Shown one piece after another: positions 16,011 to 57,895 of a stretch of 64,000 nt of DNA (its first letter is position 1; each line of letters opens with the position of its first letter). The translations under genes were made by a program, and so were the position numbers. The notes under the pieces were generated by a model. It did no database searches, was not told the origin of the DNA, and was given only the letters and a program-made list of their open reading frames with translations. Source of the stretch: Shinella curvata. Its GTDB lineage: Bacteria > Pseudomonadota > Alphaproteobacteria > Rhizobiales > Rhizobiaceae. The stretch lies in the NCBI RefSeq assembly GCF_022899935.1, contig NZ_JALJCJ010000005.1, forward strand, positions 248,001-312,000, in the 5' to 3' direction.

Positions 16011-16298
16011 TGTCGCGTCCCCCATGACAGGCACGGCGACAGGATCACCGTCCGCCACCGCGCGCAAATCGTCCCTCAACCACACGCTATACGGGCCTTG
16101 AGGACCCGTTATTCCCCATTTACGAAAGGAACGCGGATTTTCGAGAAAAGTCCAGTCGTGAGTGGCCAGCCGGTTCGCGCAAAAAATCGCCGCGCCCAGC
16201 CCGCATCGACGTGAAAATGGGAAGGTGCGCCGGAGCGCTTGCGGTCCGCCGCGACAGACGAAGCAGGAAAAGTGCGATCCACGGCGACCGATGGAGAT

Positions 16299-16431
16299 TT
16301 ACGATCCTGGGTGCCTACAAACGTAGGTGGGCGCCATATGTCCAAGCCCACGGGCCTGGTCAGGGACAGCTCCCTTTGGATCGAGTATGGCCCCAGGGAT
16401 TGTGGTTCCTGTCGGGAAGCGCAGATCGCAA
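16299..16431 (-). ncRNA. ssrS: Probable 6S RNA
   Basis: Candidate 6S RNA, which binds RNA polymerase holoenzyme in stationary phase. It lies just downstream of zapA on the same strand, the conserved alphaproteobacterial position. The ends can pair (TTGCGATC with GATCGTAA), an inner closing stem forms (CTGGGGCC with GGCACCCAG, one bulge), and a long central arm contains TCCAA/TTGGA, GGGAGCTGTCCC and a CCTAC/GTAGG side hairpin. A TATATC -10-like box (16436-16441) sits 5-10 bases before the predicted 5' end. Boundaries are uncertain; 133 nt is shorter than typical 6S. Confidence 0.55.
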
Positions 16432-22551: not shown

Positions 22552-23832
22552 ATGCGCAATAATCTCATATCCGTCTTCGCGCTGCTCATGGGCACGCTGT
22601 TCCTGTTCCTCGGGAATGGCCTGCACGGCCTGCTGCTTCCCATGCGCGGCGCCTTCGAAGGTTATGAGACGACGATGCTCGGCTTGCTCGGCACGTCCTG
22701 GGCGTCGGGCTTCGTGCTCGGCTGCCTACTGGCGCCTGCTATCGTCAAGCGCATCGGCCATGTGCGTGCCTTCTCGGGCTTCGCCTCGCTCATCGCCATC
22801 ATCGCGCTTTTGACCGGCATCCTCGTCGATCCCATCTGGTGGATCGTGCTGCGTGCCGTCACCGGTTTTTCGATCGCCGGCACATCGATGATCATCGAAA
22901 GCTGGCTGAACGAACGCGCCACCAACGAGAGCCGCGGCCTGATCTTTTCCCTTTACATCGCCATCACGCTGATCGGCACCGTCGGTGGCCAGATGACGGT
23001 GGCGCTCGGCGATGTGACGACACCGATCCTGTTCATGTTCGCCGGCATCCTCTACTGCTTCGCCATGCTGCCGACCACACTCTCCACGGCCGCCTCGCCG
23101 CAACCGCTGAAGCAGGTGCGCCTCGATATTCCCGCCCTCTTCCGCACCTCGCCGATCGCCTGCGTCGGCATCGTGCTGATCGGCATTTCCAACGGCGCCT
23201 TCGGAACGCTCGGCGCCGTCTTCGGCGCGCAGGTGGGGCTTACGTCCAGCATGATTGCCACCATGATGAGCGTGGCGATCTTCGCCGGCGCCGTCATGCA
23301 GCTGCCGGCCGGCCGCATGTCCGACCGCATCGACCGGCGCATCGTGCTTGCCGCGCTCTCGGCGGTGGCCGCCGCCGCCGGCCTTGCCCTCTTCGTCTTT
23401 CAGCCGGCTAACGTGACCGTGCTTCTGGTGCTGACCGCCCTCTATGGCGCGATGGCCAATGCCCTCTACCCGATCGCCGTGTCGCATGCCAATGACTTCG
23501 CAAGTCCCGAGGACTTCGTGAAGGTGTCCGGCGGCCTGCTTCTCCTGTACGGCATCGGCACGATCATCGGCCCCACGCTCGGCGGCCCGATCATGTCGGC
23601 TATCGGCCCCTATGCGCTGTTCCTCGTCACCTGCTGGGCGCATATCCTGATCACCGCCTACGCGATCTTCCGCAGTCAGCGCCGCGCCGCTAAGCCGGCC
23701 GAGATGCGCGATGCCTATACGACGATCAACCCCGGCACGCTGATGACGCCGGAAAGCCTTCAGCTTTCTCCGCGTGCCCTGCCCCAGCAACAGGCCACTG
23801 CCGACGAGCAACAGGAGGGGGAAACCGCATGA
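22552..23832 (+). CDS. MFS transporter
   Basis: Inner-membrane transporter of the major facilitator superfamily, 426 residues with twelve predicted helices. The SWASGFVLGCLLAPAIVKRIG segment carries the loop 2-3 region, and GRMSDRIDRR the equivalent loop 8-9 signature. The substrate cannot be told; the sequence resembles the YfcJ/UMF-type efflux members of Rhizobiales. The ATG at 22552 is preferred to a TTG at 22525. Its stop overlaps the DUF1192 start by four bases. Confidence 0.9.
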   Translation: MRNNLISVFALLMGTLFLFLGNGLHGLLLPMRGAFEGYETTMLGLLGTSWASGFVLGCLLAPAIVKRIGHVRAFSGFASLIAIIALLTGILVDPIWWIVLRAVTGFSIAGTSMIIESWLNERATNESRGLIFSLYIAITLIGTVGGQMTVALGDVTTPILFMFAGILYCFAMLPTTLSTAASPQPLKQVRLDIPALFRTSPIACVGIVLIGISNGAFGTLGAVFGAQVGLTSSMIATMMSVAIFAGAVMQLPAGRMSDRIDRRIVLAALSAVAAAAGLALFVFQPANVTVLLVLTALYGAMANALYPIAVSHANDFASPEDFVKVSGGLLLLYGIGTIIGPTLGGPIMSAIGPYALFLVTCWAHILITAYAIFRSQRRAAKPAEMRDAYTTINPGTLMTPESLQLSPRALPQQQATADEQQEGETA

Positions 23833-24017
23833 GCCTTTTCGATGATGATCGCACGCAGAAGAAGACGGTCCATGACATCGGCAGCGACCTCTCCCTGCTG
23901 TCCGTGGATGAGCTTTCCGCGCGAATCGACCTCCTCAAGGCCGAAATCGCACGTCTCGAATCGGAGAAGGCACAAAAGGGCGCCAGCCGCTCGGCTGCGG
24001 AAAGCCTATTCCGCTAG
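23829..24017 (+). CDS. DUF1192 family protein
   Basis: 62 residues: SLFDDDRTQKKTVHDIGSD, then SLLSVDELSARIDLLKAEIA and a short helix, the pattern of DUF1192. A small cytoplasmic alpha-helical protein of unknown function, common in Alphaproteobacteria. Start and MFS stop overlap (ATGA), so translation is coupled. Confidence 0.88.
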   Translation: MSLFDDDRTQKKTVHDIGSDLSLLSVDELSARIDLLKAEIARLESEKAQKGASRSAAESLFR

Positions 24018-24018
24018 G

Positions 24019-24061
24019 GCATTTCCAGCCGAAGCGGAATCGCTTCGGCGTCGGATAATGC
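24019..24061. repeat. Short palindromic element
   Basis: GCCGAAGCG-4 nt-CGCTTCGGC (24028-24049) nested in outer GCATT/AATGC arms. This form recurs in rhizobial intergenic regions to my knowledge. It begins two bases after the DUF1192 stop and lacks a T-tract, so I do not call it a terminator. Confidence 0.6.
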
Positions 24062-24130
24062 GAAAACAACCAGCGCCTATTGTCGCAGCCTTGCCAAAAA
24101 AACACAGGAGCCGGCGAAACGACAATAGAG

Positions 24131-24145
24131 TTAACCGGCCATTAA
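24131..24145 (+). promoter_or_regulatory. CtrA box (TTAA-N7-TTAA) before candidate sRNA
   Basis: TTAACCGGCCATTAA matches the CtrA consensus half-sites exactly, with correct 7-base spacing. It lies about 30 bases upstream of the predicted 5' end of the sRNA, the expected distance for a CtrA-activated promoter (box overlapping the -35). Confidence 0.65.
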
Positions 24146-24168
24146 GCCTTACACGTTATTACTTGCCT

Positions 24169-24268
24169 ATCCGGTCCTTCCGGATTCAGACATTTTCTCC
24201 CTCCGGGGTATCGGTCTGATTTTTCTCCCTGTTTTACCTTGAGAGCCGCTTTCCGCGGCTCTTTTTTT
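24169..24268 (+). ncRNA. Candidate CtrA-controlled sRNA with duplicated anti-Shine-Dalgarno motif
   Basis: About 100 nt with no ORF. It can form hairpin 1 (ATCCGG/CCGGAT, 24169-24185), hairpin 2 (CAGAC/GTCTG, 24187-24217) and a terminator hairpin with a 7-T tail. The 10-mer TTTTCTCCCT occurs exactly twice, in the loop of hairpin 2 (24193-24202) and in the linker (24221-24230); CUCCCU is complementary to ribosome binding sites, as in several rhizobial trans-acting sRNAs. A CtrA box lies upstream. It could correspond to the cell-cycle sRNA type known as GspR in Sinorhizobium, which I cannot confirm. Confidence 0.55.
24241..24268 (+). terminator. Intrinsic terminator of the candidate sRNA
   Basis: AGAGCCGC and GCGGCTCT flank a 5-base loop and are followed by seven T. 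Confidence 0.9.
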
Positions 24269-24316
24269 ATTTGCGCCCCCATCCTCCTGTGCACTGTCCC
24301 GAAAGAATTGTGGAGA

Positions 24317-24331
24317 TTAACCCTTTATTAA
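24317..24331 (+). promoter_or_regulatory. CtrA box (TTAA-N7-TTAA) upstream of rcdA
   Basis: TTAACCCTTTATTAA has perfect half-sites and spacing, 117 bases before the rcdA ATG. A GGTTAT -10-like element follows at 24352-24357. In Caulobacter, rcdA is a CtrA target, which fits. Confidence 0.65.
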
Positions 24332-24447
24332 GAATGCCCTTGCGCGAATTAGGTTATGGGATCATCCTCAAGACATAGAAGGCGGCTGGAACCGAATGAG
24401 CCGACCCTCCGTTACCTGCAAGTCGCGCGTTCAACAGGGATCAAACC

Positions 24448-24966
24448 ATGTCCGAAAGAGGATTGAATACCGTCAGCTTCGCTGGCCACGTTGCGTCGTC
24501 GGCGCAATTCAAGGCCCTGTACGCTGAGGGCATGGGTCTCGTTGAGGAGACCGCGAGCTATCTCGATGGCGTCGGCCGCCAGGCTTCCAAGGTCCTGCCG
24601 CGCATGGCCTCGGTGCTTTACGCAGCAGAATCGATGCGCCTCACCACCCGCCTGATGCAGATGGCCTCCTGGCTTCTCCTGCAGCGCGCTGTCAACAATG
24701 GCGAAATGAGCCGCGATCAGGTGCTGTCGGAAAAGAACAAGGTCCGCCTCGACAGCTTCAACGTCGACAAGACCGCGCCCGGCTGGAACGACCTGCCGGA
24801 AGCCTTCCGCGACCTCATCGAACGGTCGCTGCGCCTGCAGAACCGCATCGCCTTGCTCGACCGCGAAATCTATCGCCCGCAGGACGTCCAGACATTTGCG
24901 CCCGACAATCAGAACAGCGTCCAGGCCCAGATCAACCTGCTGCAGACCGCCTTTGGCAACAACTGA
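24448..24966 (+). CDS. rcdA: RcdA, ClpXP adaptor for CtrA degradation (DUF1465)
   Basis: RcdA is a three-helix dimeric adaptor that helps deliver CtrA and other substrates to ClpXP during the alphaproteobacterial cell cycle. 172 residues with the DUF1465 family pattern: FKALYAEGMGLVEETASYLD near the N-terminus, ESMRLTTRLMQMASWLLLQRA in the middle, and a disordered C-terminal tail after residue about 145. The ATG at 24448 is clear. A CtrA box upstream suggests feedback, as CtrA would drive its own proteolysis factor. It ends at a strong terminator. Confidence 0.88.
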   Translation: MSERGLNTVSFAGHVASSAQFKALYAEGMGLVEETASYLDGVGRQASKVLPRMASVLYAAESMRLTTRLMQMASWLLLQRAVNNGEMSRDQVLSEKNKVRLDSFNVDKTAPGWNDLPEAFRDLIERSLRLQNRIALLDREIYRPQDVQTFAPDNQNSVQAQINLLQTAFGNN

Positions 24967-25097: not shown

Positions 25098-25319
25098 TTA
25101 GAGGCCGAGGCCTTCGAAGCGCTTCTTGAACTTCGAAACGCGGCCGCCACGGTCCAGCATCTGCTGGTTGCCGCCGGTCCAGGCCGGGTGCGACTTCGGA
25201 TCGATTTCGAGGTTCATCGTTGCGCCTTCCGAACCCCAGGTCGAGCGGGTTTCGTACTCGGTGCCGTCGGTCATGACGACCTTGATGACGTGGTAGTCGG
25301 GATGGATATCAGCCTTCAT
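25098..25319 (-). CDS. rpmE: 50S ribosomal protein L31
   Basis: 73 residues, beginning [19 protein letters not shown], with HPAWTGGN and [11 protein letters not shown]. It contains no cysteine, so it lacks the zinc ribbon of the classical L31; this form is normal for Alphaproteobacteria. The ATG at 25317-25319 gives the family N-terminus. Divergent from the ABC exporter. Confidence 0.97.
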
Positions 25320-25509
25320 GACACTCTTCCTGCTTGTTCCGGGGGCCATTTGTCGCAACGCATTGCGGCAGCGAGGCCAAAGACGTAAATGAAGCCGCGG
25401 CCGGTCGGACCTGCGGCTTCCCAATTCGATGGCGAGCCTATACATGAAGGCCGTCTGGATAACAAGAGCCGAAAGACAAATCGTGCCGCAAGGCGCTGGA
25501 AACGGGGGT

Positions 25510-55740: not shown

Positions 55741-55909
55741 GTTTCCGCTGATAAGCCTCGCCCGGTTTCGCTCCACCCTCTTTTCTCTTGAAGTTGCCGT
55801 CGAGCGGTGAAAACATCCGCTCGGCCGGCTGTCCCGTTTCCGCTTCAGGGAGCAACGGACGGCCCCTGCCGCGCTCTCCAGCGCCGGCACAAACAGGGAG
55901 ATGAGGACC

Positions 55910-57895
55910 ATGACGATTTTCCGATCCGGCTTTCTCGCCGCCTCCATCATCGCGCTCTCCAGCGGCTCGGCACTCGCCGACTACGAGCTGAACATCCTGC
56001 ATATCAACGACCTGCATTCGCGCATCGAGGCGATCAACAAGTTCGATTCGACCTGCTCGGCCGAAGAAGAGGGCAAGGGCGAATGCTTCGGCGGCGTGGC
56101 ACGCCTGAAGGCTGCGATCGATGCCCAGCGCCAGGCGCTGTCCGGCAAGAACGTGCTCCTCCTCAATGCCGGCGACAATTTCCAGGGTTCGCTCTTCTAC
56201 ACGACCTACAAGGGGGCGGCCGAAGCGGAATTCCTCAATCTCATGAAGTTCGACGCCATGACCGTCGGCAACCATGAATTCGACGACAGCGAGGACGGCC
56301 TCGCCACCTTCCTCGACAAGGTCCAGTTCCCTGTCGTCACCGCCAATGTCGCCGCCGGGGCGGGCTCGAAGCTCGGCGACCGCATCAAACCTTTCATCGT
56401 GCTGGATCAGGGCGGCCAGAAGATCGGCATCGTCGGCGCGGTCGCCAACGATACGGCGGAACTCTCCTCGCCCGGCCCGAACGTGCTGATCGGCGACGAC
56501 GTCGCCGATATCACCGCCGCCGTCGCCGAACTGAAGAAGCAGGGCGTCGACAAGATCATCGCACTCACCCATGTCGGCTATCCGCGCGATCTTGCGGCGA
56601 TCGCCAAGATCCCCGACATCGACGTGGTCGTCGGCGGCCACACCAACACATTCCTGTCCAACACCTCGGACAAGGCGGAAGGCCCCTATCCGACGCTGGT
56701 CGACAATCCCGGTGGTTACAAGGTGCCCGTCGTACAGGCCGGCGCCTATACGAAATATCTCGGCAATCTCAAGGTCGTCTTCGACGATGCCGGCGTGGTG
56801 AAGGAAGCCTCCGGCGAGCCGATCCTGATCGATTCCAAGATCAAGCCGGACGAAGCCGTGCTCGCCCGCATCAAGGAACTCTCCGGCCCGATCGAGGAGC
56901 TGAAGAATAAGATCGTCGCGGAAAGTTCAGCCCCGATCGACGGCTCGCGCGAAACCTGCCGTGCCGCCGAATGCGCCATGGGCAACCTCGTGACGGACGC
57001 GATCCTCGACCGCACCAAGGATCAGGGCATCACCATCGCCATCACCAATGGTGGCGGTCTGCGCGCCTCCATCGACGGCGGCCCGGTCTCGATGGGCGAA
57101 GTGATCTCCGTCCTGCCCTTCCAGAACACGGTCGCGACCTTCCAGCTCAAGGGCTCCGACCTCGTCGCCGCCCTCGAAAACGGTCTTAGCCAGATCGAAG
57201 AGGGTGCCGGTCGCTTCCCGCAGGTCTCCGGCCTGAAATATTCCTTCGACAAGTCGAAGCCGGCGGGCAGCCGTGTCGTTTCCGTCGAGGTGAAAGAAGG
57301 CGATGCCTTCGTACCGCTCGATCCGGCCAAGATCTACGGCGTCGTCTCGAACAACTATATGCGCTCGGGCGGTGACGGCTATTCGGTCTTCGCGAAATTC
57401 GGCCAGAACGCCTATGATTTCGGCCCGAACCTGGAGCTGGTCGTCGCCGACTATCTCGCCGCGCACCAGCCCTACAAGCCTTACACGGATGGTCGCATAA
57501 CCGAAGTTGCCGCGTCGACACCTGCGACGGTCGACGCCGCGACCGGCACCGAGGCAAAGCCGGCCACATCGACGGAGACGGCTGCAAAATCGACGGAGGG
57601 AGCTGCAACGACCGGTGACGCCGCTTCCGACGCCGCAACAACGACTGAAGCCAAACCCGCGGCCTCGACCGACACGACTGCGAAGTCTGCGACCGAGGGG
57701 ACGGCGACCACGACGACAAGCGAAGCAGCAACGGCGGGCGGCAAGCATATTATCGCGCGCGGCGACACGCTGTGGGACCTCGCCAAGGCCGCCTATGGCG
57801 ACGGCACGCTGTGGCGCAAGATCGCGGAAGCCAACGGCAATCCGCGTCCGCGCGCGCTGCATGTCGGCAATGAGCTTTCCATCCCCGCAAAATAG
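55910..57895 (+). CDS. UshA-like 5'-nucleotidase with C-terminal LysM domain
   Basis: 661 residues. Signal peptide (about 1-24, ending SALA-D). Metallophosphatase domain with HINDLHSR, NAGDNFQG, VGNHEFDD, THVGYPRD and GGHTN; 5'-nucleotidase C-terminal domain with NGGGLRASIDGG and LPFQNTV; a Thr/Ala-rich linker of about 75 residues with two similar TEAKPA blocks; and a LysM domain at the end (GDTLWDLAKAAYGDGTLWRK, then HVGNELSIP). LysM would tether the enzyme to peptidoglycan. The ATG at 55910 has GAGG 5 bases upstream; ATG 55901 is the alternative. Confidence 0.93.
   Translation: MTIFRSGFLAASIIALSSGSALADYELNILHINDLHSRIEAINKFDSTCSAEEEGKGECFGGVARLKAAIDAQRQALSGKNVLLLNAGDNFQGSLFYTTYKGAAEAEFLNLMKFDAMTVGNHEFDDSEDGLATFLDKVQFPVVTANVAAGAGSKLGDRIKPFIVLDQGGQKIGIVGAVANDTAELSSPGPNVLIGDDVADITAAVAELKKQGVDKIIALTHVGYPRDLAAIAKIPDIDVVVGGHTNTFLSNTSDKAEGPYPTLVDNPGGYKVPVVQAGAYTKYLGNLKVVFDDAGVVKEASGEPILIDSKIKPDEAVLARIKELSGPIEELKNKIVAESSAPIDGSRETCRAAECAMGNLVTDAILDRTKDQGITIAITNGGGLRASIDGGPVSMGEVISVLPFQNTVATFQLKGSDLVAALENGLSQIEEGAGRFPQVSGLKYSFDKSKPAGSRVVSVEVKEGDAFVPLDPAKIYGVVSNNYMRSGGDGYSVFAKFGQNAYDFGPNLELVVADYLAAHQPYKPYTDGRITEVAASTPATVDAATGTEAKPATSTETAAKSTEGAATTGDAASDAATTTEAKPAASTDTTAKSATEGTATTTTSEAATAGGKHIIARGDTLWDLAKAAYGDGTLWRKIAEANGNPRPRALHVGNELSIPAK

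Follow-up and report, generated by a model that had tools for sequence, protein, structure and literature searches.

A conserved small RNA with a CtrA-type promoter box beside rcdA in Shinella curvata and its relatives

In the Alphaproteobacteria the cell cycle is governed by the master regulator CtrA, known mostly for its role as a transcription factor, with the consensus TTAA-N7-TTAA and the ability to activate from the -35 region; in enterobacteria, OmpR and RpoE silence genes through small RNAs (sRNAs). Several rhizobial RNAs are relevant here. In S. meliloti, sm84 lies on the forward strand between SMc03988 and SMc03989, gives a band of ~80 nt and a microarray signal, and has a promoter annotated as sigma-70, as stated in the portion of PMC2573895 covered here. 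SmelC671 is placed at 2986421-2986520 on the + strand (100 nt; PMC2873474, in part), ReC71 of R. etli is given as the same sRNA (PMC3927594, in part), and the covered sections of PMC7143759 report nodule zone II expression of SmelC671, with no promoter class in their Table 1. Throughout the covered sections of this literature, sm84/SmelC671/ReC71 is an expressed, conserved sRNA for which neither a function nor a link to CtrA or rcdA is described. GspR, another rhizobial sRNA tied to CtrA, is SmelC775, located between SMc03844 and SMc03845, ~143 nt in size, likely found only in Sinorhizobium and, in the covered sections, without a known promoter signature upstream (PMC5928217, PMC7143759). The Caulobacter ncRNA CcnA has a predicted CtrA site and acts via a C-rich loop, according to the covered part of PMC8959179. 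For rcdA itself, whose product contributes to CtrA proteolysis, excerpts of PMC4433202 report ChIP-seq binding of CtrA at the rcdA promoter region of S. meliloti, while CtrA depletion leaves rcdA unchanged, and excerpts of PMC10469942 report several transcription start sites (TSS) 5' of rcdA in all three agrobacterial lineages, with a predicted CtrA site.

We analysed a 64-kb stretch of Shinella curvata DNA (the window, at its full length), in which a sequence-only reading had picked out a candidate CtrA-driven sRNA next to rcdA. The gene order is pgk, an MFS transporter gene, the DUF1192 gene, the sRNA unit and rcdA, then rpmE on the opposite strand, and the features are as follows.

16272-16430, - strand: 6S RNA, used as a synteny anchor (RF00013, 77.6 bits)
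23829-24017, + strand: DUF1192 gene, 5' of the sRNA
24131-24145, + strand: CtrA-type box TTAA-N7-TTAA of the putative sRNA promoter, TTAACCGGCCATTAA, an exact match
24157-24162, + strand: possible -10 element TATTAC, from its position
24169-24268, + strand: sRNA gene, 100 nt, predicted 5' end (from fold, RF02356 match, synteny and length)
24169-24185, + strand: hairpin 1 (AUCCGG/CCGGAU), from the fold, with double changes at 5 of 6 pairs and 92.5% of cells paired
24186-24219, + strand: hairpin 2 (UCAGAC/GUCUGA), from the fold, containing the first TTTTCTCCCT copy at 24193-24202
24220-24240, + strand: open linker of 21 nt, from the fold, with the second TTTTCTCCCT copy at 24221-24230 and the conserved CUCCCUGU core
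24241-24268, + strand: intrinsic terminator, from the fold, a 9-pair stem at 24241-24263 and then a T run
24317-24331, + strand: second CtrA-type box, on the rcdA side, an exact match
24448-24966, + strand: rcdA, protease adaptor (NF051867, NCBIfam ProtaseAdptRcdA; PF07323)
25098-25325, - strand: rpmE (ribosomal protein L31), start approximate; it adjoins the sRNA in two genomes where no rcdA was detected

The proposal that the neighbour is rcdA, with a CtrA box of its own, is borne out by the NCBIfam ProtaseAdptRcdA match and the perfect box at 24317-24331. The top ten RcdA relatives carrying a species name, among those listed, all come from Shinella. The upstream box had been called perfect, and it is exact; the two boxes are the sole perfect TTAA-N7-TTAA matches in the 64 kb, where shuffled windows hold 0.01 on average and 0 of 100 shuffles reach two. 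The centre of the upstream box lies ~31 nt 5' of the predicted sRNA start, over the -35 region, and the sequence of the sRNA gene therefore carries the CtrA regulon motif at promoter position; the form of the motif in the covered part of PMC3616915 is TAA-N7-TTAAC. A simple consensus scan of 24020-24450 gave no sigma-70-like match. At gathering scores, the Rfam search of the whole window returned the 6S RNA as its sole match and did not call the sRNA unit.

The predicted sRNA measures 100 nt, its 5' end being taken from the fold in Shinella. The stretch 24169-24272 has a folding energy of -37.0 kcal/mol (z = -5.1), which none of 200 shuffles equals, and no ORF of at least 20 aa lies fully within the unit, which three mechanical frames overlap. 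The description of an ORF-less 100-nt unit with hairpins and a strong terminator thus stands. The open linker at 24220-24240 is the predicted targeting element. The 10-mer TTTTCTCCCT does occur exactly twice in the window, as had been noted (shuffle mean 0.07; two copies reached in 0 of 100 shuffles), and the linker copy is single-stranded in the fold, but the other copy had been assigned to a hairpin loop, and its CCC is predicted to be paired in hairpin 2, so that it would not be freely exposed. In 21 Shinella genomes the first copy is present in 5, the second in 19 and the perfect box in all 21. The idea that the two 10-mers work as a pair is therefore rejected, since the first copy is found in just 5/21 Shinella. 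In two Shinella loci (L017, L018) UCCCCUG replaces UCUCCCUG in the linker.

The structure is also conserved in relatives. Our alignment A1 contains 67 sequences, with L069 and L209 left out besides the wrong pattern picks L035 and L067, and its RNAalifold consensus recovered the terminator alone, because hairpins 1 and 2 do not stay in register across the mixed clades. We therefore scored a 25-pair structure hand-written from two A1 sequences, a choice that favours the structure: 89.0% of cells are paired over the 67 sequences against 82.1% in shuffles, double-change pairs number 18 against 11.1, and 0 of 500 shuffles are as high on any measure, which agrees with the expected hairpin conservation. 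Slid versions of the same structure pair 32-44% of cells. The model matches 74 times in 80 loci, and 71 of these matches contain the linker core CTCCCTGT, which also appears in the Rfam consensus; it is not universal, with departures in L017, L018, L039, L085, L220 and L221, and its invariance within A1 is partly by construction, because the pattern used for picking contained [CT]CTCC. The open motif read as resembling an anti-Shine-Dalgarno (anti-SD) sequence is thus conserved far beyond the genus.

Comparison with named RNAs shows that the unit is a genuine conserved sRNA that is already known: it is an orthologue of sm84/SmelC671 (R. etli ReC71), with Rfam BjrC1505 as a diverged relative. 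The equivalence with sm84/SmelC671 follows from the neighbourhood, that is, the distance to 6S RNA and the orientation. The 6S RNA lies 14.3 kb from the sRNA in strain 1021, 12.6 kb in strain 4H41 and 7.9 kb here, in the same relative orientation, and the genomic place thus agrees with that of sm84/SmelC671. In S. meliloti 4H41 the homologue measures 100 nt from hairpin 1 through the T run and has a perfect TTAA-N7-TTAA box. The RNAs are alike in place, strand relation, 100-nt length (as predicted for Shinella), hairpins and the linker UUUUUCUCCCUGUUUUACC, and it follows from the position that SMc03989 is rcdA.

The covariance search against Rfam gave RF02356 (BjrC1505) as a related family, at 36.2 bits (search of 461 bases with permissive settings, E 2.5e-5; 7.9e-5 for the genome), which is below the gathering threshold of 50 bits, with an alignment over the full length of the model (1-140 of 140). 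When 20 loci chosen from 80 fetched upstream of rcdA were scored with RF02356, 19 exceeded 50 bits, up to 133.6, and one scored 37.6. The series of loci 5' of rcdA (L074 at 37.6, L082 at 51.1, L092 at 63.3, up to L038 at 133.6 bits) connects the window RNA to the family through intermediates at the same locus and makes it the diverged end of the series. BjrC1505 and the window's clade differ in hairpin 2 and the flank of the linker (GACGCCUCCCUGUU against UUUUUCUCCCUGUU); GAGUGGCUCCUGUCCACUC-UGUUUGACGCCUCCCUGUUAAC or a similar sequence occurs in most other loci, whereas the window's clade has UCAGAC...GUCUGA-UUUUUCUCCCUGUUUUACC. Positions 1 to ~45 of the RF02356 model appear to cover the promoter with its box, so part of the consensus structure would be a DNA signal and not RNA.

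Other RNAs resemble the unit less closely. MmgR/suhB (RF00519), AbcR and SorX, whose loci we take to differ from that of the window sRNA, have a similar 3' module, in which a GC-rich terminator follows a C-rich anti-SD stretch. The window RNA gives weak matches to RF00519 and RF02784, and its scores lie below the cut-offs of suhB/MmgR (24.3 against 41 bits) and SorX (13.9 against 46.6 bits). The suggested link to GspR is rejected: by its published description GspR, as SmelC775, has a different locus, a different size (~143 nt) and a likely Sinorhizobium-limited range, and the likeness lies in its being a rhizobial sRNA tied to CtrA.

We then mapped the RNA across genomes, where family and order are inferred to be Rhizobiaceae and Rhizobiales. 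Among the matches listed, RF02356 at E<=1e-3 is found in 166 of the 199 order genomes, with 138 above the cut-off; class-wide it is found in 30 of 289 genomes (13 above the cut-off), and it was not found in 14 control genomes, including Caulobacter vibrioides. Our own model R1, built from A1 with 7 pairs, includes the window sequence, so its window score of 86.9 bits is not independent. R1 matches 74 of 81 family genomes, two of which show a further, weaker match; of the seven in which it was not found, six have sizes of 1.1-2.6 Mb and the seventh is 3.6 Mb. Across the class, R1 matches 57 of 289 genomes among the matches listed, and the weak ones may represent different RNAs sharing the sRNA's 3' module.

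The position of the RNA is nearly constant. Of the 150 sRNA rows listed, 129 come from genomes with a listed rcdA, and in 126 of these 129 the sRNA lies directly 5' of rcdA on the same strand; of the three exceptions, one is on a different contig and two are second copies. The median distance to the RcdA Pfam domain is 223 nt in the order and 224.5 nt in the family, where 72 of 74 genomes have the sRNA directly 5' of rcdA. Outside the order, an RcdA-like match, in some cases weak, lies within the fetched stretch at 10 of 18 loci. This near-fixed place upstream of rcdA, as read from the genome sequences, is apparently new. The sRNA stands apart from rcdA in L226 (G035), 4.6 kb upstream, and in G246:C1:1191426-1191543, elsewhere on the contig. 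Second RF02356 copies distant from rcdA are seen in L217 (G133), at 501-621, and L218 (G059), at 501-643; L217 has an altered linker and no TTAA box by eye, and could be a decayed duplicate.

We next asked how well the box is conserved, scanning 80 nt at the expected promoter position against a dinucleotide-shuffle background. At 151 unique loci, a set that still includes the wrong pattern picks L035 and L067, 140 have a box of at least 7/8 and 90 a perfect one, compared with 8.3% and 0.3% of shuffles, and the box lies at -96 to -82 relative to the linker in 146/151. After L035 and L067 were removed from the 71 non-redundant loci, 69 were scored, of which 65 have at least 7/8 and 35 are perfect at spacing 7. 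The picking pattern missed 18 of 202 rcdA-bearing loci, and R1 recovers the RNA in 12 of the 18. In the outside-order set (29 loci, L236-L264; 26 scored, 3 of these within the order), 20 of the 23 scored loci outside the order have at least 7/8 and 8 are perfect, although these are related sequences and not independent events. The claim that the CtrA-type box is a promoter element of the sRNA is thus upheld by a spacing-7 box of at least 7/8 in 65/69 loci, conserved beyond the genus.

These data bear on whether CtrA is involved at all. The promoter could be an ordinary sigma-70 promoter, with TTAA-N7-TTAA a consequence of AT richness in the -35 region, as would fit the sigma-70 promoter given for sm84 in the covered part of PMC2573895, the two loci (L025, L026) that keep the RNA with a best box of just 6/8, and the matches of at least 7/8 at other spacings (37 of 69 loci at spacing 3, 7-23 at the rest), which are less sharp than the perfect ones. 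We consider this unlikely, however, as perfect boxes favour spacing 7 (35/69) over spacings 3-6 and 8-12 (0-4 of 69), shuffles give 0.3% perfect boxes, and the simple scan of 24020-24450 returned no sigma-70-like match. Because the box is conserved, a link to CtrA is supported by sequence, and so is a CtrA-type promoter of the sRNA. Such a promoter is apparently new: no CtrA link of the sRNA appeared in the literature searched, with supplementary tables and most subscription journals outside its scope.

The rcdA-side box behaves differently among loci. In the window's clade (24 loci with RcdA identity of at least 70%), it is perfect in 24/24, while the sRNA-side box is at least 7/8 in 21 and perfect in 14; in the 45 loci with RcdA identity below 70%, the sRNA-side box is at least 7/8 in 44 and the rcdA-side box in 17. 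The rcdA-side box may account for the published S. meliloti ChIP peak, and part of the CtrA binding upstream of rcdA in that species may serve the sRNA. Several TSS 5' of agrobacterial rcdA are what two promoters would lead us to expect.

A common transcript offers another account of the arrangement, in which the RNA is an rcdA leader or attenuator, with transcription from the upstream box ending at ~24263 and read-through feeding rcdA. The shared strand and similar distance to rcdA (medians of 223 and 224.5 nt, measured to the Pfam domain) agree with it, as do an rcdA-side box of at least 7/8 in just 17 of the 45 loci with RcdA identity below 70%, and the several TSS 5' of Agrobacterium rcdA in the covered part of PMC10469942. 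The RNA and rcdA are also often absent together: among the matches listed, RF02356 is present in 159 of 179 order genomes with an rcdA match and in 7 of 20 without, and the 13 rcdA-less genomes that also have no RF02356 match suggest frequent joint loss. Against a leader stand those seven rcdA-less genomes that have the RNA, with a box in the four examined, together with the persistence of the RNA where rcdA is 4.6 kb away (G035) or elsewhere (G246), the strong terminator, and the discrete 80-100-nt RNA described for S. meliloti in the sources cited above, in part. In the four rcdA-less genomes the box, judged by eye, is perfect in L220 and L221 and 7/8 in L222 and L223, so the RNA can retain it in the absence of rcdA. 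We judge the leader account quite unlikely. Closeness to rcdA probably reflects shared CtrA control of one locus, because both RNA and box persist in some lineages where rcdA was not found. In two rcdA-less loci checked (L221, L223) rpmE adjoins the sRNA, with an apparent loss of rcdA around the retained sRNA.

Taken as a whole, a trans-acting sRNA of the sm84/SmelC671 type, activated by phosphorylated CtrA (CtrA-P) and blocking SD regions with its linker, has a good probability of being the right explanation, and a CtrA-activated anti-SD repressor is the most likely function, where both CtrA activation and repression are read from sequence features. The repressor proposal comes from the layout, since an open CUCCCUGU linker before the terminator is typical of anti-SD sRNAs. 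Phosphorylated CtrA would activate the stand-alone sRNA gene at 24169-24268, and the sRNA would accumulate while CtrA is active. The exposed CUCCCUGU linker would then pair with AACAGGGAG-like SD regions of several mRNAs, which by analogy would stop translation, as is thought for AbcR- and MmgR-type RNAs. The outcome would be a post-transcriptional negative arm for CtrA. The coherent CtrA output module put forward at the outset keeps its sRNA, box, rcdA neighbour and anti-SD motif, and loses the 10-mer pair and GspR. A wider form of the proposal seems to us somewhat better than an even bet: an ancient alphaproteobacterial CtrA-driven anti-SD sRNA beside rcdA, kept in some rcdA-less lineages, would serve as a negative CtrA arm and might explain CtrA binding without an rcdA response in S. 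meliloti.

If this is true, a conserved sRNA under direct CtrA control would let CtrA silence the translation of a gene set, and the sRNA may represent an RNA arm of cell-cycle control that has been overlooked. The sRNA itself is known in relatives, while its CtrA promoter and rcdA linkage are apparently new within the literature searched. The scattered catalogue names sm84, SmelC671, ReC71 and BjrC1505 would merge into one family with a promoter logic and a fixed neighbour, and the puzzling S. meliloti result, with CtrA bound at rcdA and rcdA unresponsive (PMC4433202, in part), becomes directly testable.

The target could in principle be rcdA itself. The sRNA would then mainly repress rcdA in an incoherent loop, with CtrA activating both rcdA and its repressor, and CtrA proteolysis would be delayed. 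The SD of rcdA in the window (AACAGGGA) pairs 8/8 with the linker sequence UCCCUGUU, several loci of the window's clade have 6-10 nt of complementarity to rcdA, and this loop would fit the binding of CtrA without an rcdA response in the covered part of PMC4433202. The complementarity is not conserved, however: 37 of 69 loci have a longest stretch of 0-5 nt, rcdA ranks 9th of the 62 window gene starts by duplex energy, and some genomes that lack rcdA have the RNA. As a conserved target across the order rcdA is thus unsupported, and we regard the loop as improbable. It is very improbable that the RNA is a GspR-type or CcnA-type regulator of ctrA mRNA; the cell-cycle context and the C-rich loop of CtrA-linked CcnA (PMC8959179, in part) speak for such a role, whereas GspR has another locus, another size and a Sinorhizobium-limited range in the published sections covered, and CcnA, compared by description, differs in that its gene is at the replication origin.

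Returning to the trans-acting repressor, we searched for its mRNA targets in the own genome, the window genes, Shinella orthologues and the order, and found no conserved one. In the own genome, AAACAGGGAGAAA with at most 1 mismatch gave 3 non-self sites versus 2 for the reversed control. The best candidate in the window was a 5'-nucleotidase/LysM gene at 55910, whose SD region (55885-55912) has an 11-nt complement to the linker; it was rejected, as the complement is present in 0 of the 19 other Shinella orthologues fetched. The complement of the core of the wider family, ACAGGGAGGCGTC (13 nt), has 125 sites listed in 150 order genomes, of which 103 are at a listed RF02356 match, 4 more are beside rcdA and 18 are elsewhere (e.g. 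L298, L303), a modest excess over the 6 sites of the reversed control. Four secondary matches (L212-L215) had no Rfam match at E<=0.1, and they have a common CCTTGAGAGCCGC stretch near another reading frame. One AAACAGGGAGAAA-type site, in L234, lies at an SD.
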